A DNA stretch of 64,000 bases from Devosia sp. LC5. Its GTDB lineage: Bacteria > Pseudomonadota > Alphaproteobacteria > Rhizobiales > Devosiaceae. The notes under the pieces are model-generated. The model saw only the letters and a program-made list of their open reading frames with translations, ran no database searches and was not told where the DNA came from. Shown piece after piece: positions 35,862-48,128 of this stretch (position 1 is the first letter of the stretch; each line of letters starts with the position of its first letter). Made by a program: the position numbers and the translations under genes. The stretch is from NCBI RefSeq assembly GCF_000735585.1, contig NZ_JNNO01000044.1, positions 62,001-126,000 on the forward strand, written 5' to 3'.

Positions 35862-36431
35862 TCAGTCCTTGGCGCGCTCGACATAGGAATTGTCGTCGGT
35901 GAGGATGACGATGCGGGTGCCGACGCCGATATGGGGCGGGACCATGACCTTGAGGCCATTGTTGAGCACGGCGGGCTTGTAGGATGACGACGCCGTCTGG
36001 CCCTTGACCACGGGCTCGGTCTCGACGATCTCGAACGTCAGGCGCTGCGGCAATTCCATCGACAGGGCCGTGCCCTCGAAGGTCTTGAGGTGGACCTTCA
36101 TGCCATCAACCAGATAGGCCCGCTGGTCCCCGATCACATCGTCGGCGACTGTGATCTGCTCATAGGTGGCGGGCTCCATGAAGTGGTGACCTTCGCCGTC
36201 CGAATAGAGATAATCATATTCACGATCATCGACATCGGCCTTTTCGACCATTTCAACGGTGCGCCAGCGGCCGACGACCTTCACGCCATCGGAAATGCGG
36301 CGCATATTGACGTTGGTGATGGAGTTGCCCTTGCCGGGGTGGACGTTTTCCGCCGTCAGGATGACGTGCAGATTACCATCCTGTTCGACGACATTGCCCT
36401 TGCGGAGCGATGAGGCGATGACCTTGACCAT
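35862..36431 (-). CDS. efp: Translation elongation factor P
   Basis: A 189-residue ribosome factor that relieves stalling at polyproline stretches. The KOW-like N-domain carries the modification loop NVHPGKGNS with Lys34, the residue that EpmA beta-lysylates; then the OB domains with [19 protein letters not shown] and the C-terminal signature region [20 protein letters not shown]. The ATG at 36431 has AAGGAAG upstream. It is divergent from epmA-epmB, so substrate and modifying enzymes share one promoter region. Confidence 0.97.
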
Positions 36432-36576
36432 CAATTCTTCCTTGTTCAAGCGGTGGCGGCGGCCTAGAGGAGCGGCAATGGAGCCGGGCCGGGCGCGCTG
36501 ATATTTTTCTTTGGTGCTGCCCGATACAATAATTCCGGCCAAACCGCCAGACCCGAGCCGAGAAAGAGCCGATCGA

Positions 36577-37638
36577 TTGTCTTCCGCCCCGTTTTCTCCC
36601 CCGGCTTCGCCCTGGTGGACGCCCCAGGTTCATGCCGACCGGCGGCCGCTGCTGCTGGGCCGCAATCGCATCGATGCGGCATTGCGGGGGTATCTGGCCG
36701 AAAATGACTTCATCATGGTGGATCCGCCGGGGCTGCAGCGCTCGCCGGGCAACGAGACCCATCTGCATGCCTTTGCCACCACGGCCATCGGCAATGACGG
36801 TGTCGGGGAGACGCTCTATCTCCACACCTCGCCCGAATTCACCATGAAAAAGCTGCTGGCGGCGGGGGAGAGGCGCATAGCCAGCCTGGGTCATGTCTGG
36901 CGCAACCGGGAGCGCAGCGCGCTGCACCATCCCGAGTTCACCATGCTCGAATGGTATCGAGCGGGGGAAGAGTATGGGGCTGTCATCGCCGATTGCCTCA
37001 ATATGCTGCAATTGGCGGCCACGGCGGTAGGCAGCAAAATGCTCCGCTACAAAGGCCACGAATGCGATCCCTTTGTTGAGGCGGAACGCCTAAGCGTCGT
37101 GCAGGCCTTCGAACGCTATGCGGGTATCGACCTGCTCGCGACTATGGACACGGCGGGCAATACCGATGGCGAGGCGCTGGCATCAGCGATGCTGGCCGTA
37201 GGCCTCGATGTGCCCGAAGATCGCAGCTGGAGTTATCTGTTCAGCCGGGTGCTGGTGGAAAAGGTCGAGCCCAATCTGGGGCTGGGCCGAGTGACGGTGC
37301 TGGATCGCTACCCGGCCGCTGAGGCGGCGCTGGCGCGGCGGGCAGCGGATGACATGCGGGTCAGCGAGCGGTTCGAGCTTTATGCTTGCGGGGTGGAATT
37401 GGCCAATGGCTTTGGCGAATTGACCGATGCGGGCGAGCAACGCCGCAGATTTGCCGCCGAGATGGATGAAAAGCAGCGGATCTATGGGGAGCGCTACCCA
37501 CTCGACGAGGATTTCCTCAAGGCGCTAGACCTGATGCCCGAGGCGAGCGGCGTCGCGCTGGGATTTGATCGCGTCGTGATGTTGGCGACGGGCGCGCCAC
37601 GGATCGATATGGTGCTATGGGCGCCGGTGGTGGAATGA
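36577..37638 (+). CDS. epmA: EF-P--(R)-beta-lysine ligase
   Basis: A 353-residue class II lysyl-tRNA-synthetase-like enzyme without an anticodon-binding domain. It activates (R)-beta-lysine and attaches it to EF-P Lys34. Motif 2 is [20 protein letters not shown], motif 3 is [15 protein letters not shown], and [15 protein letters not shown] is typical of EpmA. I prefer the TTG at 36577, giving a family-like length; a GTG at 36511 would add 22 residues. Ten bases separate it from epmB. Confidence 0.95.
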
Positions 37639-37648
37639 GAGATTTTTG

Positions 37649-38707
37649 ATGGGCGCCGGCAAGGCCAGTTTAAAAAGTGCGGACGATCTGGTGGCGGCCG
37701 GACTGGCTCCGCTCGAGCAGCGCGACGCGCTGGCCGCAGTCGCCGAGCGCTATGCCATTGCGCTGACGCCAGCCGTGGTCGGTTTGATCGACCGGAGCGA
37801 TCCCGCCGACCCGATGGCGCGCCAATTCGTGCCGCAGGTAGCTGAACTGGTAACAACCCCGGATGAAAGGGCCGACCCGATCGGGGACTTGGCCCATTCG
37901 CCGGTGGAAGGAATAGTGCATCGCTATCCCGACCGCGTGCTGCTCAAGGCCGTGCATGTCTGCCCGGTCTATTGCCGGTTCTGTTTCCGCCGCGAAATGG
38001 TGGGGCCGCAAGGGCTGGGCACATTGACGCCCGAAGCCATGGACGCGGCCATCACCTATATCGCCGATCATCCCGAAATCTGGGAAGTGATCCTGACCGG
38101 GGGCGACCCCCTCGTGCTCTCGGCACGGCGGTTGCGCGAGATGATGGCGCGGCTCAAGGGGATCGATCACGTCAAGATCGTGCGCTTTCACACCCGCGTG
38201 CCAGTGGTCGAGCCCGAGCGGGTCGACGACGCGCTGATCGAGGCTCTCAAGGCCAGCGGCAAGACGACCTATCTGGCCGTCCATGCCAATCACCCGCGCG
38301 AATTTTCTGAGACCGCGCGGGCGGCGATTGCGCGCCTGGCCGATAGCGGCGTGGTGCTGATCAGCCAATCGGTGCTACTCAAGGGCGTCAATGACGACGT
38401 GCCGACGCTGGCGGCACTGATGCGCGGCTTCGTCGAAAACCGCATCAAGCCCTATTACCTGCACCACCCCGATCTGGCGCCCGGCACCAGCCATTTCCGC
38501 GTATCGATCGAAGACGGCCAAAAACTCGTCGCCGCCTTGCGCGGCACGATTTCAGGATTGTGCCAGCCCACCTACATCCTCGATATCCCCGGCGGCTATG
38601 GCAAAGCCGATATCGGCGCCAGCAGTATCAGTGGCACCGACGGTTGTTTCACCATACGCGATTTCCGCGGCGGGGAGCATCGCTATCCGCCGGATACGGT
38701 TTGGTAG
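37649..38707 (+). CDS. epmB: EF-P beta-lysylation protein (lysine 2,3-aminomutase)
   Basis: A 352-residue radical-SAM, PLP-dependent aminomutase converting (S)-alpha-lysine to (R)-beta-lysine for EpmA. The radical-SAM cluster motif CPVYCRFCFRRE is present, followed by ILTGGDPLVLSARRLREM and RFHTRVPVVEPERV; the PLP Lys is expected near the C-terminal GKADIGASS region. The short length is that of EpmB rather than catabolic KamA. ATG at 37649 preceded by GAGAG. No EpmC hydroxylase gene is seen. Confidence 0.95.
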   Translation: MGAGKASLKSADDLVAAGLAPLEQRDALAAVAERYAIALTPAVVGLIDRSDPADPMARQFVPQVAELVTTPDERADPIGDLAHSPVEGIVHRYPDRVLLKAVHVCPVYCRFCFRREMVGPQGLGTLTPEAMDAAITYIADHPEIWEVILTGGDPLVLSARRLREMMARLKGIDHVKIVRFHTRVPVVEPERVDDALIEALKASGKTTYLAVHANHPREFSETARAAIARLADSGVVLISQSVLLKGVNDDVPTLAALMRGFVENRIKPYYLHHPDLAPGTSHFRVSIEDGQKLVAALRGTISGLCQPTYILDIPGGYGKADIGASSISGTDGCFTIRDFRGGEHRYPPDTVW

Positions 38708-38775
38708 GGCGCCTCCTGACACCTGTTGTCAGCTGTAGCGCTAGACTGCCGGACGCTCGAAATGGGAGGCTGGCA

Positions 38776-39150
38776 ATGACCCCTGATGACTTCATGCGCC
38801 GATATGAGGCCGCGACGAATGCCCATGACCTGGCGGGCACGCTTGAGCTGATTGCCGAGGACGCTGTTTATCTGTTTAGCGATCGAACCAGCCATATCGG
38901 CAAGCCGGCGATCAAGAATGCCCTTGCGGCAAATTTTGCGAGCATCAGGAACGAGACCTATGCGATCTCCGGGTTACGATGGCTTGCGGCTTCGGAGGCC
39001 GTGGCCGTCTGCATCTATGAGTTCCGCTGGTCAGGTGAAATCAATGGAGAAGCCGCATCAGGAAGCGGCCGGGGTACGTCCGTGTTGCGGCGCGACGACG
39101 GGCATTGGCTCGTGGCGCATGAACACCTGAGCTCGGGCGGGCTGGAATAG
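38776..39150 (+). CDS. SnoaL-like / DUF4440-type NTF2-fold protein
   Basis: A 124-residue protein with the NTF2-fold pattern: FMRRYEAATNAHDLAGTLEL, IAEDAVYLFSDRTSHIGKPA, and the terminal strands GRGTSVLRRDDGHWLVAHEHLS. This layout is that of calcium/calmodulin kinase-association or ketosteroid-isomerase-like proteins. Ligand unknown. ATG at 38776 is preceded by GGGAGG. It stands alone 68 bp after epmB. Confidence 0.82.
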   Translation: MTPDDFMRRYEAATNAHDLAGTLELIAEDAVYLFSDRTSHIGKPAIKNALAANFASIRNETYAISGLRWLAASEAVAVCIYEFRWSGEINGEAASGSGRGTSVLRRDDGHWLVAHEHLSSGGLE

Positions 39151-39317
39151 GCGCCCGATTTCGCTCGGTGTCTTCGCCCAGCGTCGTTGGACCGGTGTTC
39201 GGCGCGGGGCCCCGCCGCTGGGCGCGGCGGGGATTGCCGGCTCGATATTTGCGTTTTGCCACCGGCATGTTCGTGACGCCCAAACGTATTGTGGGCAGAG
39301 CGTCCTAGCACTGCCCC

Positions 39318-40304
39318 TTACAGCCAACCGCGCTTCTTGAAATACAGATAAGGCAGCACCGCCGACAGGATCATCAGGCCAATGGCGAACGGATAGCCGA
39401 ATTCCCATTTCAGCTCGGGCATGATGTCGTAGTTCATGCCGTAGATGGAGGCGACCAGCGTCGGCGGCAGGAAGACCACGGCCGCGACCGAGAAGATCTT
39501 GATGATCTGGTTCTGCTCCAGATTGATCAGGCCCAGCGTCGCGTCGAGCAGGAAATTGATCTTGCTGGAGAGTGTGCGCGCATGTTCGCCCAGCGAAACG
39601 GCGTCGCGCTGGATCAGCTTGACCAATTGGCGGGCGTCCCGCCCGGCCCGCGTGGTGTCGCCATTGGGCGCGATATGGAAGGCCATCAGCCGCGAAATGC
39701 TGACCAGGCTTTCCTGCACCATGGTGAGCAATTCCGCCTTGGCGCCGATCCGCTCTATGATGGAGCGCAAATCCTGCTGCAGCTGCTTGGCGGTGCTGCT
39801 TTTCTTGCCGAATACGTCGCGCGAGATCTGGTCGATTTCGTTGCCGACGCGTTCCAGCGCATCGGCAGTGCGATCGATCATGGCTTCGAGCAGGCCCAGA
39901 AACACCTGTTCGCCCGAGCTGCAAGCAATGCTCTTGGATTTCTGCGCGCGCAGGGTAAAAGCCAGGAACGGCTTGGGTTCGGCATAGCGCACGGTGACCA
40001 GCGTTTCGCCCTTGAGGATGAAGGTGATCGGGGTCTTGGAGGGCTCCTCGCTATCGAGCTTGTGCAGGCCCGTCATGGTCATGAATTCGGCGCCATCCTC
40101 GCTATAGAGGCGGGCGGAAAGCTCGATTTCCTCCATCTCGGCCTGGCTGGGGATGTCGATGCCCAGCAATTGCTCGACGAGGCGATCTTCCTCGGCGGTG
40201 GGTTGCAAAAGATCGAGCCAGACCAGGCCGGCAACACCGGCGGGATCGAGCGGAAGGGTGCTTTGCACGAGCCGTGCGGCTTCGTTGTGATATGCGCGCA
40301 GCAT
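39318..40304 (-). CDS. corA: Magnesium/cobalt transport protein CorA
   Basis: A 328-residue CorA-type divalent-cation channel. A long cytoplasmic alpha/beta and helical funnel domain is followed by the stalk helix (SSKINFLLDATLGLINLEQN), TM1 (IFSVAAVVFLPPTLVASI), the selectivity motif YGMNYD, and TM2 ending in a basic tail (FKKRGWL). The ribosome-binding site TTAGGAG precedes the ATG. An imperfect 22-bp palindrome lies just upstream. Probably carries Mg2+, possibly Co2+ or Ni2+. Confidence 0.95.
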   Translation of the reverse strand: MLRAYHNEAARLVQSTLPLDPAGVAGLVWLDLLQPTAEEDRLVEQLLGIDIPSQAEMEEIELSARLYSEDGAEFMTMTGLHKLDSEEPSKTPITFILKGETLVTVRYAEPKPFLAFTLRAQKSKSIACSSGEQVFLGLLEAMIDRTADALERVGNEIDQISRDVFGKKSSTAKQLQQDLRSIIERIGAKAELLTMVQESLVSISRLMAFHIAPNGDTTRAGRDARQLVKLIQRDAVSLGEHARTLSSKINFLLDATLGLINLEQNQIIKIFSVAAVVFLPPTLVASIYGMNYDIMPELKWEFGYPFAIGLMILSAVLPYLYFKKRGWL

Positions 40305-40320
40305 TTTGGCAGGCTCCTAA

Positions 40321-40342
40321 GGTAGACCGCGCGCGGACTACC
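40321..40342. promoter_or_regulatory. 22-bp palindrome in corA leader
   Basis: GGTAGACCGCG / CGCGGACTACC pair as an inverted repeat with one mismatch, directly before the ribosome-binding site of corA. It could be an operator or a leader hairpin. Confidence 0.4.
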
Positions 40343-40506
40343 GAGCCGACAATATCGTCAGGTCGAGAAGGCCGTGCGCGGGGTCGAAGATCGACTTCGA
40401 CTGTCGGGGTTCATCTGGTTTCTCGCGTGTGAAAATGGCTGGGCCATCGACAGATCGTGCATGCGCCCGGATTCAAATTCTGTCAATTGGGGCATATGGA
40501 AAAGAG

Positions 40507-41169
40507 CTATGCGCCCGGCGAAGCCTGTTCCAGTGCCCGCCCGGCGGGGAAGATGCCGGACATCACGACGAAGCCCGGAATACGGCGGACGCGGTCGGTC
40601 CAGCGGCGCAGAGCCGGATAATCCTGCCGGGAAATGCCGCCTTCTTCGCTCAGCATCACATAGGGGAAGCACGCGATGTCGGCGGTGGTGGGGTGGCTGG
40701 GTGCGCAGAGCCAGTCGCGGCCCTCGCGCTCGCCGAACCAGAGATGCTCATCCATGATGCGGAAGATGCGGTGGGCAGACTTCTGGGCTTTTTCGATGTC
40801 GAAATCATAATCGAAACCGAGTGCGAGGCGGGCGGCGGAGGCGGTGGCTGTGATGTCGTCGCCCACGGCATGCCAGCGCAGCACTTCGGCGGTGATCGCC
40901 GGATCATCGGGGAACCAGCGGCCGCTCTCGTCATATTTCTTGGCGAGATAGGCGAGAATGGCGCCCGAATCCGACAGGGTCAGCTCGCCGTCCTTAAGCA
41001 CGGGAAGCTGGCCGAAGGGGTTGAGCTTTAAAAACCAGTCGGCCTTGTGCTGGCGGCCGGGGAAGAAATCGACCGGGATGATGTCATAGCGCAGCTTCAA
41101 AATGCTCATCAGCAGCCGCAGCTTGTAGCAATTGCCCGAGAGTTCGAAGTCGTAAAGGGTGATGGTCAT
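40507..41169 (-). CDS. GST-like protein, NdmE-type component
   Basis: A 220-residue glutathione-S-transferase-fold protein. The thioredoxin-like N-domain begins ITLYDFELSGNCYKLRLLMS, with the cis-Pro in NPFGQLPVLKDG and SDSGAILAYLAKKY; the helical C-domain contains APSHPTTADIACFPYVML. In the methylxanthine N7-demethylase, NdmE is a GST homologue with a structural role between the Rieske-less oxygenase NdmC and the reductase NdmD. Here the gene follows counterparts of both in order on the minus strand. Alone it would be an ordinary GST; its operon makes the structural role plausible. ATG at 41169 chosen because GAGAGACAA precedes it. Confidence 0.8.
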   Translation of the reverse strand: MTITLYDFELSGNCYKLRLLMSILKLRYDIIPVDFFPGRQHKADWFLKLNPFGQLPVLKDGELTLSDSGAILAYLAKKYDESGRWFPDDPAITAEVLRWHAVGDDITATASAARLALGFDYDFDIEKAQKSAHRIFRIMDEHLWFGEREGRDWLCAPSHPTTADIACFPYVMLSEEGGISRQDYPALRRWTDRVRRIPGFVVMSGIFPAGRALEQASPGA

Positions 41170-41192
41170 TTGTCTCTCATTGTTCCCCATGA

Positions 41193-41278
41193 GACCTCAT
41201 GGTGAGCTTGTCGAACCACGAGGTCGGCAACACCGATCTCGCCACGACCTCGTCCTTCGACAGGCTCAGGATGAGGTC
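41193..41278. repeat. Palindromic intergenic element
   Basis: An imperfect inverted repeat of about 33 bp per arm (41193-41227 and 41246-41278): GACCTCATGGTGAGCTTGTC... against ...GACAGGCTCAGGATGAGGTC. It contains the TGTCGAA / TTCGACA core common to dispersed alphaproteobacterial palindromes and lies between the reductase and GST-like genes. Confidence 0.75.
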
Positions 41279-41290
41279 TACAGATGGGGC

Positions 41291-42976
41291 CTAGATATCG
41301 AGTACCAACCTGGCTGACCTGGCCCGGCTGACGCAGGTCATCATGCAGCTATTGGAAGCCTTCTCGCTGTCGTTGAGATAGACGTCCTGATGGTCCACCT
41401 CGCCCTCCATGACCGCAGTGAGGCAGGTGCCACAGGCGCCTTGCTCGCAGGAGGAGGGGACGGTGAGGCCGGCATCGCGCATCACTGCGAGAATAGTGCG
41501 GCCCGAAGGAACATGCAGCGTCATGGCAGAACGGGCGAGCTCGATTTCAAAGCTCGAGCTGTCGTCGATGATCTTGTCGTTCTTGAAATATTCGAAGTGG
41601 ATGGCTTCGTCGGGCCAGCCTTGTTCGGCCGCGGTTTCGCGGACGGATTCGAGCATGGCCGAAGGGCCGCAGACATAGACATGTTGGGCGCGGGACCAGG
41701 GGCCAAGCGTCGCGGCAATGATCGTGCCGATTTCGGCGCGGGGCAGGCCCTGGTGGATGATCACCTTGCCACCGAGCGCTTCGAGCCGGTCGCGGAAAGC
41801 GGCCTGTTCGCCGCTGCGGACGAAATAATGCAGCTCATAGGGCAGGCTCGACTTGTCGAGAAAACGAGCCATGGAGAGCAGCGGCGTGATGCCGATGCCG
41901 CCAGCGATCAGTACGGTGCGGGTAGCGTCGCGGCGCAGCGGGAAATTGTTGCGCGGTTCGGAAATGGCGAGCACGTCGCCTTCACGCACACTATCGATCA
42001 GCACTTGCGAGCCGCCCTTGCTGGCGCTTTCGGCCTTGACGCCGATGACATAGCTCATCAATTCGCCAGGGCCGTTGGTGATCGAATATTGGCGGATCAG
42101 GCCATTGGGCAGGTGCAGATCGATATGGGCGCCGGGCTGGAAGGTGGGCAGGTGCCCGTCGCGGGCAGCCAGTTCGAAGCCGGTAACGCCATCGGCAGAT
42201 TGCCATTTGCGCTTGACCACGACCGGCATGGTATTGCCGCGCGGAATGGCGATTTCGGGCATGGTGGCGAGATCCGCCGAGACCTTTTCGAATACCGGCT
42301 GCAACGGTTCGGGCGCCGGCTTGCGGGTCGCTGCGCGCTCGAGACGGTCACGGAGCCTTGTCAGGACCTCATTGTGCTGGCGCAGGATGGCGAGATCAGG
42401 TTGGCCCGCAACGAGGCCGCGGATGACGGCGCGATTGGCATCGACCGGCTGGACGAACCAGATCGTATCGCCGGTACGGATGGAGAGGCCCGGCAGGCGC
42501 TCGGCGTCCGGGGTGGAGAGTGCATCGAGTACGTCTTCAGGCGCGGCGTTGACGGGCATGGGGCGCAGGACAGACCAGTCGCCGGTTTCGGCTCCGGGGA
42601 AGGGTGTGAAGGGAAGCTCCTCATTGGCGGCGGACCAGACCAGGCCATAGGCCTCGCGCACCGGATAGGTGCGGTTCTGGATGCGGCGGGCGGGGGCGTC
42701 GGCGGGGTGGGCCGGAATATAGGTGCAGCCGGCGGAGCGATTTGCATAGCGCCAGCCATGATACTGGCATTTGAGCTCGCCGCCCTCGTTGATGCCGATG
42801 GACAGGCGCACCCCGCGATGCAGGCACCGGTTTTCCCAGACATTCACATTGCCATCGTCAGCCCGCCACACGGCGAGTTCGCGGCCGAGCAGCTGGCCTT
42901 GATAGACGTGGCGGAACGGCAGGTCCTCGCTCGAGGCGATGGGATACCAGGTGGGATCGGCAAGGGAGAGCGTCAT
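41291..42976 (-). CDS. Rieske-containing oxygenase reductase, NdmD-type (Rieske + FMN/NADH reductase + ferredoxin)
   Basis: A 561-residue three-part redox protein. Residues 1-110 form a Rieske [2Fe-2S] domain with Cys51-x-His53 (CLHRG) and Cys70-x2-His73 (CQYHGW). Residues ~110-230 resemble a shrunken oxygenase C-terminal segment (IRTGDTIWFVQPVDANRAVI). Residues ~250-460 are a phthalate-dioxygenase-reductase-like FMN/NAD(P)H module (RQYSITNGPGE, IAGGIGITPLLSMARFL, VYVCGPSAML). The C-terminal plant-type [2Fe-2S] domain has CEQGACGTC and a distal Cys in SCMMTC. Ordinary reductases lack the first domain; NdmD of caffeine metabolism has it. It would pass NADH electrons through its own Rieske centre to the neighbouring oxygenase. 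Confidence 0.92.
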   Translation of the reverse strand: MTLSLADPTWYPIASSEDLPFRHVYQGQLLGRELAVWRADDGNVNVWENRCLHRGVRLSIGINEGGELKCQYHGWRYANRSAGCTYIPAHPADAPARRIQNRTYPVREAYGLVWSAANEELPFTPFPGAETGDWSVLRPMPVNAAPEDVLDALSTPDAERLPGLSIRTGDTIWFVQPVDANRAVIRGLVAGQPDLAILRQHNEVLTRLRDRLERAATRKPAPEPLQPVFEKVSADLATMPEIAIPRGNTMPVVVKRKWQSADGVTGFELAARDGHLPTFQPGAHIDLHLPNGLIRQYSITNGPGELMSYVIGVKAESASKGGSQVLIDSVREGDVLAISEPRNNFPLRRDATRTVLIAGGIGITPLLSMARFLDKSSLPYELHYFVRSGEQAAFRDRLEALGGKVIIHQGLPRAEIGTIIAATLGPWSRAQHVYVCGPSAMLESVRETAAEQGWPDEAIHFEYFKNDKIIDDSSSFEIELARSAMTLHVPSGRTILAVMRDAGLTVPSSCEQGACGTCLTAVMEGEVDHQDVYLNDSEKASNSCMMTCVSRARSARLVLDI

Positions 42977-43063
42977 GACGTCATCCGAAGAGATTGGGAT
43001 CGCGCCACGATCGGATGAGGTCGAAGTCGGCGGGCCTTGGCGTACGAGGTCCGCTCCATGGCG

Positions 43064-43957
43064 TCAGCTCGCTGCCGGGATCACGCCATAGGTAATGCCC
43101 TTCTGGCTGAGCCAGCGGCGGTAGGCGATAGCGGATTTGTCGGCGCGGATGGGGGTTTCCGAGCGCGGATCGAGCGGCAGGCGCTTGGGGAACTGGTTTT
43201 CGAGGATGGGCTTGTCCTGGCCGAAAATGGTCTGCTGGAAGCGGCGCAGGTCGGTAATGGTCGAGGTGGAGTCGATCATCGATTGCAGCAGGTGGGCGCG
43301 GCAACGTTCCTCGGTCATGGGCTGCAGGAAAATGGCGATGACGTCGCGGCGGCTATCGTCCTCGGGGCAGGATTTGTAGAGCACCGAGCAGAAGGGATGC
43401 GGCACCCGGTAGACATATTCAACTTCCTGGCCCTCGGTGGCCGACAGTGCCGCGCGAGGCTGGAAGAAGCGGCAGCGCGTGGCCAGCACTTCGTCGCGCT
43501 CCTCGGAGACTTCGACGTCGTATTCCTTGACCTCGGTATGGGGTTCGGCGCCCAGAATGTCGGTATGGACATAAGGGAAATGGCCCATGTCGAGAAAGTT
43601 CTCGACGGCGCGGGGGGCCGAAACGTGAATGCCGATGGAGCCGCAGCTCATATTGACGCGATCGGGCTCGGCATATTCGGGGATCGGAAAGAGTTCGGCC
43701 GGCGGATTGCCGAAACTGGTCCAGATATAGCCATAGCCGGTGATGACAGGGAGGCGATCGGTGATGGTGGCGGGATCGATCTCGTCGCCCTGTTCCTCAT
43801 CACTGCGGCGCCAGACCACGGGGGCGCCGTCATGGTCGCGCGTGATGGCGATCTTGGTATCGAGCAGCAGCGTGGTTTCGACCAGGCCGGGGGTGATCTC
43901 GTTGTTCGCGGCCACGACCTGCCAGAGGTCGCGGGTCAGGGAGTCGATATTGGGCAT
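43064..43957 (-). CDS. Rieske-less ring-hydroxylating oxygenase catalytic subunit, NdmC-type
   Basis: A 297-residue mononuclear-iron oxygenase subunit. The iron site follows the Rieske-oxygenase pattern N120-x2-D123-x2-H126-x4-H131 (ENFLDMGHFPYVH), with a likely carboxylate in FGQDKPILENQFPKRLPLD and the C-terminal YRRWL element. Ahead of it, residues ~10-85 keep the frame of a Rieske domain (LWQVVAANNEITPG, YGYIWTSFGNP) but the two Cys-x-His loops are gone. This is how NdmC differs from NdmA/NdmB. Electrons must come from the Rieske domain on the adjacent reductase. An N- or O-demethylase role is likely; the substrate is unknown. ATG at 43957. Confidence 0.9.
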   Translation of the reverse strand: MPNIDSLTRDLWQVVAANNEITPGLVETTLLLDTKIAITRDHDGAPVVWRRSDEEQGDEIDPATITDRLPVITGYGYIWTSFGNPPAELFPIPEYAEPDRVNMSCGSIGIHVSAPRAVENFLDMGHFPYVHTDILGAEPHTEVKEYDVEVSEERDEVLATRCRFFQPRAALSATEGQEVEYVYRVPHPFCSVLYKSCPEDDSRRDVIAIFLQPMTEERCRAHLLQSMIDSTSTITDLRRFQQTIFGQDKPILENQFPKRLPLDPRSETPIRADKSAIAYRRWLSQKGITYGVIPAAS

Positions 43958-44031
43958 GAGGCATCCGTGGCTTGCTGGGAGCAGCATAGGGCGGCTGGGG
44001 CTTGCGGGGCAAGGGGGTGGGCGGCAGGGCG

Positions 44032-44805
44032 CTACCCCCGATAAATATCGAAATTCCCGAACGCCTGCGTCGTCGCCATCACCTGCAACCGATTGACGTT
44101 GACATGCTGAGGCAGGAGCGTGGACCAGACGATGGTTTCGGCAATGTCCTCGGCATTCATCGCCTTGGTGTTCTCATAGGGCTTGCTCGCCTTGCCCTCG
44201 TCGCCCTTGAAGCGGACCAGGGAGAATTCGGTTTCGGTCAGGCCCGGCTCGATATTGGTAACGCGGATATTTTTGCCCTGCACGTCCGAGCGGATATTGA
44301 GAGCGAATTGCTTCACGAAGGCCTTGGTGGCGCCATAGACCGAACCGCCCGGATAGGGGTAGTCGCCGGCCACCGAACCCAGCGTCACCACGTGGCCGCC
44401 GCCACGCGCGATCATGCCGGGCAGCAGAGCGCGCACGGTATAGACGAGACCCGTGATATTGGTCGCGATCATGGTTTCCCAGTCGGCGACATCGGCCTCG
44501 GCGGCCGGCTGCAGGCCCAGCGCCAGGCCGGCATTGGCGAGCACGATATTGATCTTGTCGAAGGGCGAGGGCAGGGAAGCGATCGCGGCGTCGATGGCTT
44601 TGCGGTCCTGTACATCGAGTTCGATGATGTGGCAGTTTTCGGCGCCCAGCTCGGCCTGCAATTCCTTCAGACGGTCGCCGCGGCGGCCGGTCGCGATCAC
44701 CTTGCCGCCGGCCTCGACATAGCGGCGGGCCGCCGCGGCGCCAAAGCCGGAGGTGGCGCCGGTGATGAAGACGACGAAGCTCTTGGGATCAAGCAGCTGA
44801 TACAT
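44032..44805 (-). CDS. SDR family oxidoreductase (YdfG-like)
   Basis: A 257-residue NADP-type short-chain dehydrogenase. The cofactor motif is ITGATSGFGAAAARRYVEAG with an ATGRR Arg pair that favours NADPH; NAG is in VLANAGLAL, the catalytic Ser in TLGSVAGDYPYPGG and Tyr/Lys in YGATKAFVKQF. The C-terminal SPLLPQHVNVNRL-like segment (STLLPQHVNVNRLQVMAT) is typical of YdfG (3-hydroxy acid / serine dehydrogenase, malonic semialdehyde reductase). ATG at 44805 chosen by family alignment. It lies upstream of the Ndm-like genes on the same strand, 74 bp before them, so could be cotranscribed. Confidence 0.9.
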   Translation of the reverse strand: MYQLLDPKSFVVFITGATSGFGAAAARRYVEAGGKVIATGRRGDRLKELQAELGAENCHIIELDVQDRKAIDAAIASLPSPFDKINIVLANAGLALGLQPAAEADVADWETMIATNITGLVYTVRALLPGMIARGGGHVVTLGSVAGDYPYPGGSVYGATKAFVKQFALNIRSDVQGKNIRVTNIEPGLTETEFSLVRFKGDEGKASKPYENTKAMNAEDIAETIVWSTLLPQHVNVNRLQVMATTQAFGNFDIYRG

Positions 44806-44967
44806 GGCGATGTCCTGAAGATTAGTCGGGGAGGTCGGGTCAGGGTGGACCGGGGAGGGGTCGGGCGTCAACCGGGCCACCTTTCCAAATCTTAACCCGG
44901 CTTACCGAGAGCTAACGTGCTGGCGCGGCGGCGGCAGGATATGGTCGCTCATACAATCTGGGGATGC

Positions 44968-46173
44968 ATGGGTTTGAAGACCGTCACGAAAATAGTTCTG
45001 ACTCTGGTAGTGATAGCAGGCGCAGGCGCTGCCGGGTGGTGGTTCTTTGCCGCACCCAAGGCGGCGACCGTGCCCAATACGGTGACGGTGGGCCGCGCCG
45101 ATATCGAGCAGACCGTCTTGGCGTCAGGGGTGTTGCAGGCCAATTCGCTGGTCAGCATTGGCGCCGAGGTGTCCGGCCGGATCGATGCCGTGCATGTCAA
45201 GCTCGGGCAGGACGTCAAGAAGGGCGACCTGATCGCCGAGATCGACTCGCTCAATCAGGAAAACGCGGTCAAGACCGCCCAGGCCGCGCTGATGGCCATC
45301 GAGGCGCAGAAGCGGGCGCAGCAGGCGACATTGGTGCAGGCGCAGGCGGCCTTGGTGCGCAATACCTCGCTGAGCGGCAGCAATCTCGTCTCCAAGACCG
45401 ATCTCGATGCCGCCCAGGCGGCGGTGGATTCATCCCTGGCGCAGATCGATCAACTCGACGCACAGATCGCGCAGGCGGAATTGAGCGTGGAATCGGCCAA
45501 GCTCAATCTGTCGCGCACGCAGATCGTGGCGCCCAATGACGGGACGGTGGTGGCGGTGCTGGTCGAGGCCGGGCAGACCGTCAACGCCAACCAGACCACG
45601 CCCACCATCGTCAAGATCGCCGATCTCGACACCATGGTGATCAAGGCCGAAATCTCGGAGGCCGATGTGGTGCGTGTGGCAGCCGGGCAGCGGGTCTATT
45701 TCACCATTCTGGGTGAACCCGACAAGCAGATCGACGCCACCCTGCGCGAGATCGAACCGGCGCCGACCTCGATCAGCGAAGACAGCACGTCGACCGATAC
45801 GGCGATCTATTACAATGGCCTCTTCGACGTGCCCAATCCCGATCACAAGCTGCGCATTTCGATGACAGCGCAGGTGACCATCGTGCTCGACGAGGTTGAA
45901 AATGCGCTGGTGTTGTCCTCGGGCCTGGTGACCCGGCGCGGGCCCGATGGCAATGCCATGGTGATGGTCTATGACCCGGCGACCGAGCAGAGCGAGCCGC
46001 GGCGGGTCGAAGTGGGCCTCAACAACAATGTCATGGCCGAGATCAAGAGCGGGCTGAACGAGGGCGACGAAGTCGTGGCCTCGGGCGCCAGCGGTGTGCG
46101 CGTTCCCACGGGCGGGCAGGGTGCGCGCATGGGTGGCGGCGGCATGGTGATGATGGGCGGCCCGCGGCCATGA
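44968..46173 (+). CDS. macA: MacA-type periplasmic adaptor (HlyD family)
   Basis: A 401-residue membrane-fusion protein. An N-terminal anchor helix ([20 protein letters not shown]) is followed by a lipoyl half ([20 protein letters not shown]), a long Ala/Gln-rich coiled-coil hairpin ([19 protein letters not shown]-like), the second lipoyl half ([20 protein letters not shown]) and beta-barrel domains. It links the MacB transporter to an outer-membrane channel, which is not encoded here. ATG at 44968 fits the anchor; ATG at 44941 is an alternative. Overlaps macB by 4 bp. Confidence 0.9.
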
Positions 46174-48128
46174 CCGACACCAAAACCCCGATCATCTCGT
46201 TGCGCGGGCTCAACCGGGTCTTCGCAACCGGGGGCGAGGCCGTGACCGTGCTGCGGGATATCGATCTCGATATCCACCAGGGCGAGTTGGTGGCCATCAT
46301 CGGTCAGTCCGGCTCAGGCAAATCGACGCTGATGAATATTCTGGGGTGCCTCGATAAGGCGACCACCGGCAAATACACCTTTGGCGGCAAGGATGTCGGC
46401 CGGCTTGGACCCGACGCCCTGGCCGAGCTGCGGCGCGAGCATTTCGGCTTCATTTTCCAGCGTTATCAATTGCTGCCGGATCTCGACGCGGTGGAGAATG
46501 TCGAAATCCCCGCCATCTATGCCGGGGTCGACGCCAATGCGCGGCGGCAGCGCGCCGTCGATCTGTTGACCCGGCTGGGGTTGGGCGAGCGGCTGAGCCA
46601 TCGGCCCAATGCGCTATCGGGCGGGCAGCAGCAGCGCGTCAGCGTGGCGCGGGCGCTGATGAATGGCGGCGAAGTGATCCTCGCCGACGAGCCCACCGGA
46701 GCGCTGGACAGTCATAGCGGCAAGGAATTGCTGGCGCTTTTGCATGAGTTGCATGGCGAGGGCCACACCATCATCATCGTGACCCATGATGCCTCCATTG
46801 CCGCGCAGGCCGAGCGGGTGATCGAGATTTCCGACGGGGTCATCATCGCCGATCGGCGCAATGGCGAAGAGACCCGCAACGACCGCACCAAGCAAAATAT
46901 CCGCCGCATCGCGCGCTGGCGCGAGGGGCTGGACCGGGCCGGCGAGGCGTTTCGCATGGCGCTGCGGGCCATGGTGGCGCATAAGCTGCGCACGTTCCTG
47001 ACCATGCTGGGCATCATCATCGGCATTGCTTCGGTGGTGAGCGTGGTGGCCCTGGGGCAGGGCAGCCAGCAGACCGTGCTCAACAATATCGCCTCGATCG
47101 GCACCAATACGATCAATATCTATCCCGGCAGCGGCTTTGGCGACCGGCGCTCGGCGCGCATTGAAACCCTGGTCCCCTCCGATGCGGCAGCGCTCGAAGA
47201 ACAGCCCTTTGCCGATAGCGTCTCCCCGCAGGTCAGCTCCAACGCCACGGTGCTGTTCCGCGCTACTTCGTCCAATGCGACGGTGACCGGCGTGGGCGCG
47301 GGCTATTTCCAGGTCAATGGCCGCACCTTTACCGATGGGGTGGCCTTCACCTCGGCCAGCGTCGATCAGATGACGCAGGAAGCCGTTATCGACAAAAACG
47401 CCAGCGACGCCTTCTTCGTCAATGGCGAGGACCCGGTGGGGCAAGTGATCATGCTCGACAATGTGCCGGTGCGGGTGATCGGGGTGGTGGCCAATGTCAC
47501 CGGCTTCGGCCCCGGCGGCAACTCAGCCAATGTCTATGTGCCCTATACCACCGCAATGCGCCGGATCCTGGGGCAGAGCTACCTCAGCTCCGTCGCGGTG
47601 CGCGTAGCCGACAGCTATGACATGAGCCAGGCCGAGGCCGACATCACCGAGCTGTTGACGCGGCTGCATAGCGGCAAGACCGACTTTTTCCTGCAGAACA
47701 CGGCGACCATCCGCGAGACCATCGAATCCACCTCGCAGACCCTGACGCTGCTGATCTCGACCATTGCGGTGATTTCACTGGTGGTCGGCGGCATCGGGGT
47801 GATGAACATCATGCTGGTCAGCGTCTCCGAGCGGACCAAGGAGATCGGCATCCGCATGGCGGTGGGCGCGCGGCGGGGCGATATCCTGCGCCAATTCCTG
47901 ATCGAGGCAGTTCTGGTGTGCTTTGTCGGCGGCGCCGCCGGGGTGGCGCTGAGCTTCGGGCTGGGCAGCGCGCTCACCGCGCTCGTGCAGGGCGCGACGG
48001 TGCGCTATTCCGCCGAGTCGATCGTCTTGGCGATCCTGTCGTCGAGTTTGATCGGCGTGGTATTCGGCTTCATGCCGGCGCGGTCAGCGGCAAGGCTGGA
48101 CCCGGTGGAGGCACTGGCGCGGGAGTAG
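46170..48128 (+). CDS. macB: MacB-type ABC exporter (ATPase-permease fusion)
   Basis: A 652-residue protein. The N-terminal ATPase has Walker [10 protein letters not shown], the signature [15 protein letters not shown] and Walker [13 protein letters not shown]. After a linker comes TM1 ([20 protein letters not shown]), a large periplasmic MacB_PCD domain, and the C-terminal FtsX domain with three helices ([20 protein letters not shown] region). It works as a mechanotransmitting exporter of macrolides, peptides or siderophore-like compounds with the adjacent adaptor. It converges on tamB with 13 bp between. Confidence 0.95.

Follow-up and report, generated by a model that had tools for sequence, protein, structure and literature searches.

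How can a Rieske-type oxygenase work when its Rieske center lies on another protein, and which compound does it then attack? These questions are raised by three consecutive minus-strand genes of Devosia sp. LC5, located in the window considered here, that is, the whole analyzed stretch of 64,000 nucleotides (contig NZ_JNNO01000044.1, positions 62,001 to 126,000). They encode an oxygenase component, a Rieske-containing reductase, and a partner with a glutathione S-transferase (GST) fold. An earlier note on this DNA likened them to the NdmC, NdmD, and NdmE proteins of Pseudomonas putida, and all three open reading frames (ORFs) are indeed present, in order. NdmCDE is described as a large complex responsible for the N7-demethylation of 7-methylxanthine (PMC4408171). 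The Devosia trio probably forms a split Rieske monooxygenase of NdmCDE type, made up of three proteins and dependent on NAD(P)H, that N-demethylates a methylated purine.

The oxygenase matches VanA_C (PF19112, E 3e-22) and, weakly, KshA_C in Pfam, while the same scan gives no Rieske match and NCBIfam no match, in agreement with the claim that its Rieske ligands are missing. The iron-site residues D133, H136, H141, and D258 are invariant in an alignment of 12 oxygenases. Traces of the Rieske fold can nevertheless be detected, as a profile of the Rieske proteins matches that of the split oxygenases in the Rieske region (probability 95.6%, E 1.1e-8), and the N-terminal columns 11-76 of the oxygenase hidden Markov model pick up its own reductase (E 1.1e-4). 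The AlphaFold model, with a predicted local distance difference test (pLDDT) value of 84.2 and low values (48-57) around residues 121-140, is aligned from residue 1, degenerate Rieske part included, and superposes on SxtT (6wn3; Z 30.2, 282 residues, 2.3 angstroms, chain residues 2-334).

Pfam places a Rieske domain at residues 9-92 of the reductase (E 1e-18) and also recognizes NAD-binding and Fer2 domains in it; the ligand pairs Cys51/His53 and Cys70/His73 named in the earlier note are found in its sequence, and residues 256-561 match phthalate dioxygenase reductase (2pia_A, E 3e-67). That a Rieske domain had moved to the reductase is right as to where the domain sits, but understated, as the reductase carries a whole degenerate oxygenase subunit. 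The stretch behind the Rieske domain can be aligned with the catalytic domain along 130 columns, interrupted by a large gap (96%, P 2.8e-9), partly owing to the conserved Rieske end. Once this end is removed, the remnant still reaches an hhalign score of 40.5 with split oxygenases, in a match that spans 56 columns of its latter half, vs. a maximum of 21.2 in 100 column shuffles and 9.5 for the reversed profile; against full-length oxygenases, it scores 21.1 vs. a shuffle maximum of 16.5. In the AlphaFold model of residues 1-254 (pLDDT 82.8, but 59-77 around the cluster, at residues 51-100), residues ~1-222 align with whole oxygenase subunits, Rieske and catalytic domains together. The top Foldseek match is GxtA (E 3e-12), and dicamba monooxygenase (3gke) aligns with Z 17.9 over 210 residues (3.1 angstroms, chain 2-307). 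From profiles and models, residues 1-222 are best read as a whole degenerate Rieske-oxygenase alpha subunit, with a shrunken catalytic half devoid of iron ligands.

The losses are complementary across relatives. In a set of partly redundant loci, with Rieske proteins chosen by similarity to that of the window and remnants cut relative to the Rieske motif, this motif occurs in 0/165 split oxygenases and 104/104 Rieske proteins, and the iron motif in 163/165 split oxygenases and 0/104 remnants, while all 15 full-length enzymes have both. The two iron-motif exceptions are L102 and L113, the latter a partial row resembling a piece of a full-length enzyme. An unrooted tree of 67 hand-picked rows sets the split oxygenases (support 98, starred), the Rieske proteins (100, starred), and the full-length enzymes (91) each on one side of a branch. 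Motifs and predicted structures together place the two metal centers on two proteins, each keeping the whole subunit fold in a degenerate form that complements the other.

In Rieske oxygenases, only ~12 angstroms separate the cluster from the iron of the neighboring subunit, against ~45 from its own, and the ferredoxin domain of NdmD docks where NdmA subunits meet in the trimer (PMC12445004). Given this geometry, a pair of half-dead subunits with complementary defects could build one working active site at each unlike interface. The oxygenase keeps only the mononuclear iron, and the Rieske subunit, fused to a phthalate-dioxygenase-type reductase, only the cluster; the two would join as unlike neighbors in the oxygenase ring. 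Electrons would pass from NAD(P)H via the flavin and the plant-type ferredoxin to the Rieske cluster, and would cross the subunit interface to reach the iron, the site of O2 activation. The GST-fold protein would hold the assembly together; its counterpart NdmE is considered structural (PMC4408171, PMC8055839). The methylated purine would be N-demethylated with release of formaldehyde, and the product would enter a guanine deaminase and xanthine dehydrogenase route, for which genes are found elsewhere in the genome.

The split-oxygenase family is large, with at least 517 candidate stretches confirmed, and is seen at least in Alpha-, Beta-, and Gammaproteobacteria and Actinomycetota. The best 80 of these 517 were taken as relative loci, so that locus counts lean toward near relatives: 16 form the Devosia group (L041-L056, of which 15 are titled Devosia and L046 only Alphaproteobacteria) and 64 are others, with neighborhood tables built from tblastn and stop-to-stop ORFs. 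Among those with at least 3.6 kb downstream (14 Devosia-group, 49 other), the three genes follow in order in 14/14 and 41/49 loci, respectively. The GST partner, whose absence beside the other two would have troubled the earlier reading, is thus kept, and the closest relatives of the oxygenase are split oxygenases, not full-length Rieske oxygenases. A second, tandem split oxygenase is present in 22 of the 49 loci, ~900 bases upstream of the main one (L059, L070, L076, and L100 among them); the two share one reductase and GST, perhaps for different methyl positions. In Pseudonocardia dioxanivorans CB1190 (L079), the reductase frame is apparently broken past the Rieske part, with no PDR (phthalate dioxygenase reductase) or GST match after it within the stretch examined.

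The nearest named relatives are Devosia, with oxygenases 79-90% identical across the 15 Devosia-titled loci. A genus survey of 75 genomes, including that of strain LC5 (cut-offs E 1e-30 for the oxygenase, E 1e-60 for GST), found the oxygenase in 59 and GST in 57; both occur in 57, the oxygenase alone in two, namely G035 (a partial match) and G081 (530 contigs), and neither in 16. Given this genus-wide occurrence, the presence of the trio is not due to chance.

The relation to NdmCDE itself was gauged with a P. putida plasmid stretch (L152), whose ndm identity is set by its neighbor genes (92% to NdmA, 94% to NdmB, and a reductase 88% to the NdmD ferredoxin domain, for the PDB stretches compared), and with a set from the caffeine degrader Paraburkholderia caffeinilytica (L153). 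Compared with these and with L029, over nearly full length, identity amounts to 44-46% for the window oxygenase, 36-39% for its reductase, and 52-56% for its GST, which bears out the NdmCDE architecture and homology proposed earlier. A Mesorhizobium set (L028) is closer, with 64%, 59%, and 70% identity, respectively. L029 itself is on a Klebsiella pneumoniae plasmid typed as conjugative, where an NdmB-like gene accompanies the NdmCDE-like set; its oxygenase is identical in four plasmid records.

A tree of 132 rows was built with the window oxygenase and 131 of 180 others (18 Devosia-group or short sequences and 31 more, for size, were left out). Obtained by a quick method and with long-branch warnings, it separates split oxygenases from 15 full-length ones by one branch (100, starred), and places NdmC outside the window subclade (91, not starred). 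The 67-row tree, also from a quick method, likewise puts NdmC outside the 13-row window clade (98, starred). Because the trees place NdmC there, the window set, judged by sequence, has the NdmCDE architecture as a cousin rather than as an NdmC orthologue. There is no linked NdmA/NdmB-type gene: of six Rieske matches in the genome, only that of the reductase itself is on the window's contig (C44). Given the trees, it was fair to call this a possible new branch. The family is not new, since a 2013 study, as retold in a review (PMC4408171), already counted 18 organisms with ndmCDE homologues of unknown function, mostly Sinorhizobium and Mesorhizobium. No report of the Devosia branch was found in the open-access literature.

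The family also exists in a second architecture, in which the Rieske protein is free. A gene for ~215 residues stands beside the oxygenase and GST genes in R. etli, R. leguminosarum, Shinella, Agrobacterium pusense, and Paracoccus, the last with an additional separate PDR gene. The free-Rieske oxygenases group with NdmC in the 132-row tree (80) and with the window clade in the 67-row tree (86). Plasmid pKNA08 of Komagataeibacter nataicola from kombucha (L154) holds two sets of this kind, in one of which the oxygenase has diverged strongly, together with NdmA-like (74%) and NdmB-like (56%) genes; this likely reflects methylxanthine breakdown in tea fermentation by the other architecture. An acylphosphatase gene is found near the free-Rieske sets L032, L034, L035, and L039, upstream in three and downstream of the transporter in Paracoccus (L034).

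As regards the substrate, many relatives have neighborhoods of a purine type. Among the 64 non-Devosia loci, 41 have a BMP-type ABC transporter gene, 14 frmA or fghA, and 12 a guanine/8-oxoguanine-deaminase-type gene (28-30% identity or more). In the representatives tested, frmA, fghA, and guanine deaminase exceed the NCBIfam cut-offs, and Bmp is recognized by Pfam. The ndm clusters carry formaldehyde genes too. The earlier statement that no ndmA/ndmB or xanthine genes are nearby is correct for the locus, but contig C46 of this genome does carry purine genes, with xdhB, Bmp, and guaD inside 11 kb, and frmA is on C43. On contig C24 of the same genome (G000), at ~12.7-28 kb, a Bmp gene accompanies several matches of guanine-deaminase type, one of which exceeds the cut-off; another purine-type route may lie there.

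The active site was compared at the positions changed in the NdmA QL mutant, which we take to be N282/F286. The window oxygenase has Q251/F255 there; Gln is found in 61/70 and Phe in 65/70 rows of the window clade, and both in 17/17 Devosia-group rows and in 4/4 NdmC rows. The upstream tandem copies have Met in place of Gln251 in 28/29 rows, and Phe in 28/29. In sequence terms, the Gln/Phe pair agrees with NdmC without being diagnostic, because each of the two residues also occurs in full-length rows. By analogy with the relatives, a methylated purine is the favored substrate and, with less certainty, 7-methylxanthine or 7-methylguanine would be the leading candidates. The set would then point to a step in the catabolism or salvage of methylated purines on which the open-access literature yielded no paper.

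Two other readings are unlikely but deserve attention. The same split machine could be a purine ring hydroxylase, turning hypoxanthine or xanthine into urate like the molybdenum-independent HpxDE. Although HpxD is a distant full-length relative of the window oxygenase, and the purine transporters and deaminases of relatives' loci would fit, the characterized kin NdmC demethylates (PMC4408171), and frmA/fghA in relatives' loci point to formaldehyde. Full-length genes of L097 and L118 fall together with L151 and the HpxD of Pantoea (L037) in both trees (support 87 with 132 rows, 95 with 67 rows; long branches), but L097, L118, and L151 each hold the set and an HpxD-type gene within one stretch, a hint that the set has a different job. 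Replacing xanthine dehydrogenase is not needed either, since TIGR02965, the molybdenum xanthine dehydrogenase gene, is matched in 73 of the 75 genus genomes (over the cut-off in 70); a molybdenum-free substitute was, therefore, rejected as the main role.

About as improbable is that the set oxidatively demethylates or hydroxylates some other N- or O-methyl compound that is not a purine, having been recruited to a new substrate in Devosia. VanA_C-type oxygenases act on many different substrates, and Devosia-group loci have no purine genes around the set, but the purine neighborhoods of the kin clade and, though not diagnostic, the NdmC-like Q251/F255 pair argue otherwise. The non-purine substrate hinted at in the earlier note is not supported, considering the purine genes elsewhere in the genome and the purine-type neighborhoods of many relatives. 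A plain NdmCDE orthologue for caffeine-derived 7-methylxanthine, which the shared architecture and oxygenase identity might suggest, is very improbable, as NdmC falls outside the window clade, the contig has no NdmA/NdmB-type gene, a search of the genome with the oxygenase (P0001) finds only itself, and the place is conserved, with the same upstream gene throughout the Devosia group.

Several observations weigh against the split methylated-purine demethylase preferred here. The BMP gene, the deaminase, and frmA/fghA occur in 0/16 Devosia-group loci, within the stretches compared; because these loci are without purine-type neighbors, the Devosia substrate is deduced from kin. The frmA/fghA link is found almost wholly in tandem-oxygenase loci (11 of 12, among the 49 with sufficient downstream sequence), and Devosia-group loci have no tandem copy. 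Full-length rows have Gln in 8/15 and Phe in 6/15 at the QL positions. Finally, one iron His is Arg in the split oxygenase of L102, one or more partners are missing nearby in 8/49 non-Devosia loci, and both trees keep NdmC apart.

A broader scenario is put forward only tentatively, as it is less likely than not to hold in full. The split may have arisen when a whole subunit was doubled and the two copies lost complementary parts, which left obligate mixed rings with an active site only between unlike neighbors; the widespread native job would be the salvage of methylated purines from RNA/DNA turnover (e.g., 7-methylguanine), with caffeine breakdown as a late specialization. If true, the origin of the extra Rieske domain in a decayed subunit would explain why electrons still cross between subunits, and would offer a testable assembly model together with a natural test of the rule that a cluster serves the iron of the next subunit. 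Salvage, if true, would account for the conserved place in 59/75 genus genomes.

Predicted features of the trio, with positions counted in the window.
Feature	Position	Strand	Remarks
Oxygenase component P0001, NdmC-like	43064..43957	minus	297 aa from M11; mononuclear Fe site, without Rieske ligands
Degenerate Rieske fold of oxygenase, residues ~15-95	43703..43945	minus	fold kept, cluster-binding loops lost
Iron-site motif D133-x2-H136-x4-H141	43565..43591	minus	D258 at 43214-43216
Rieske-containing NAD(P)H reductase P0002, NdmD-like	41291..42976	minus	561 aa
Rieske [2Fe-2S] domain, residues 9-92	42701..42952	minus	C51, H53, C70, H73
Shrunken pseudo-catalytic domain, residues ~116-222	42311..42631	minus	iron ligands lost
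Phthalate-dioxygenase-reductase-type flavin and NAD(P)H domains, residues 256-466	41579..42211	minus	
Plant-type [2Fe-2S] ferredoxin domain, residues 476-561	41294..41551	minus	41% identical to that of NdmD
GST-fold partner P0003, NdmE-like	40507..41190	minus	true start perhaps 41169

The oxygenase end at 43957 corresponds to start M11, close to the starts of relatives (the ORF list has 43987), and the genes are separated by 87 and 100 bases. The 100-base gap, between the reductase and GST genes, holds a repetitive extragenic palindromic (REP)-like inverted repeat (41248-41276), whose 22-base core has 22 copies in the genome vs. 0 for a control. Upstream, a short-chain dehydrogenase/reductase (SDR) gene (44032-44805) is the one found in 16/16 Devosia-group loci, but it was rejected as a member of the unit, since it adjoins the oxygenase in only two of these (L043 and L053) besides the window. 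No xanthine riboswitch was found in the scan of positions 36000-48000 (three weak matches, all below gathering scores), nor in the eight scanned out of 14 stretches of relatives (L032, L033, L035, L038, and L039 left out), and one scan with the L030 oxygenase gave no sign of viral carriage.

The third gene has GST domains in Pfam. A role as a glutathione enzyme is weakened, because 10 of 14 rows inspected, from an alignment of 95, have Ala at the position of S74, presumably the Ser that usually contacts glutathione, and because nine actinobacterial loci also have the partner; actinobacteria mostly lack glutathione.

Among known systems, the closest solved sequences and structures to the oxygenase are SxtT and GxtA (SxtDIOX; E 2e-27, Z 30), which, in contrast, are full-length Rieske oxygenases with an unrelated substrate. 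Phthalate dioxygenase reductase (2pia) resembles the C-terminal 306 residues of the reductase, but has no Rieske part. HpxDE of Klebsiella, a molybdenum-independent xanthine hydroxylase, is similar in combining a purine-acting Rieske oxygenase with an adjacent PDR-type reductase gene (PMC7373994), whereas HpxD is a full-length protein that retains a Rieske motif, and no GST gene is annotated in stretch L037. NdmCDE of Pseudomonas putida CBB5 shares with the window the gene order, the Rieske-less oxygenase, the reductase with an extra Rieske domain, the GST-like partner, and Gln/Phe at the two compared positions, but differs by its identity of 36-56%, separate clade, and other neighbors, and no ndmA/ndmB is linked to the window set. 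The ndm type appears as one small clade of a wider family with two architectures.

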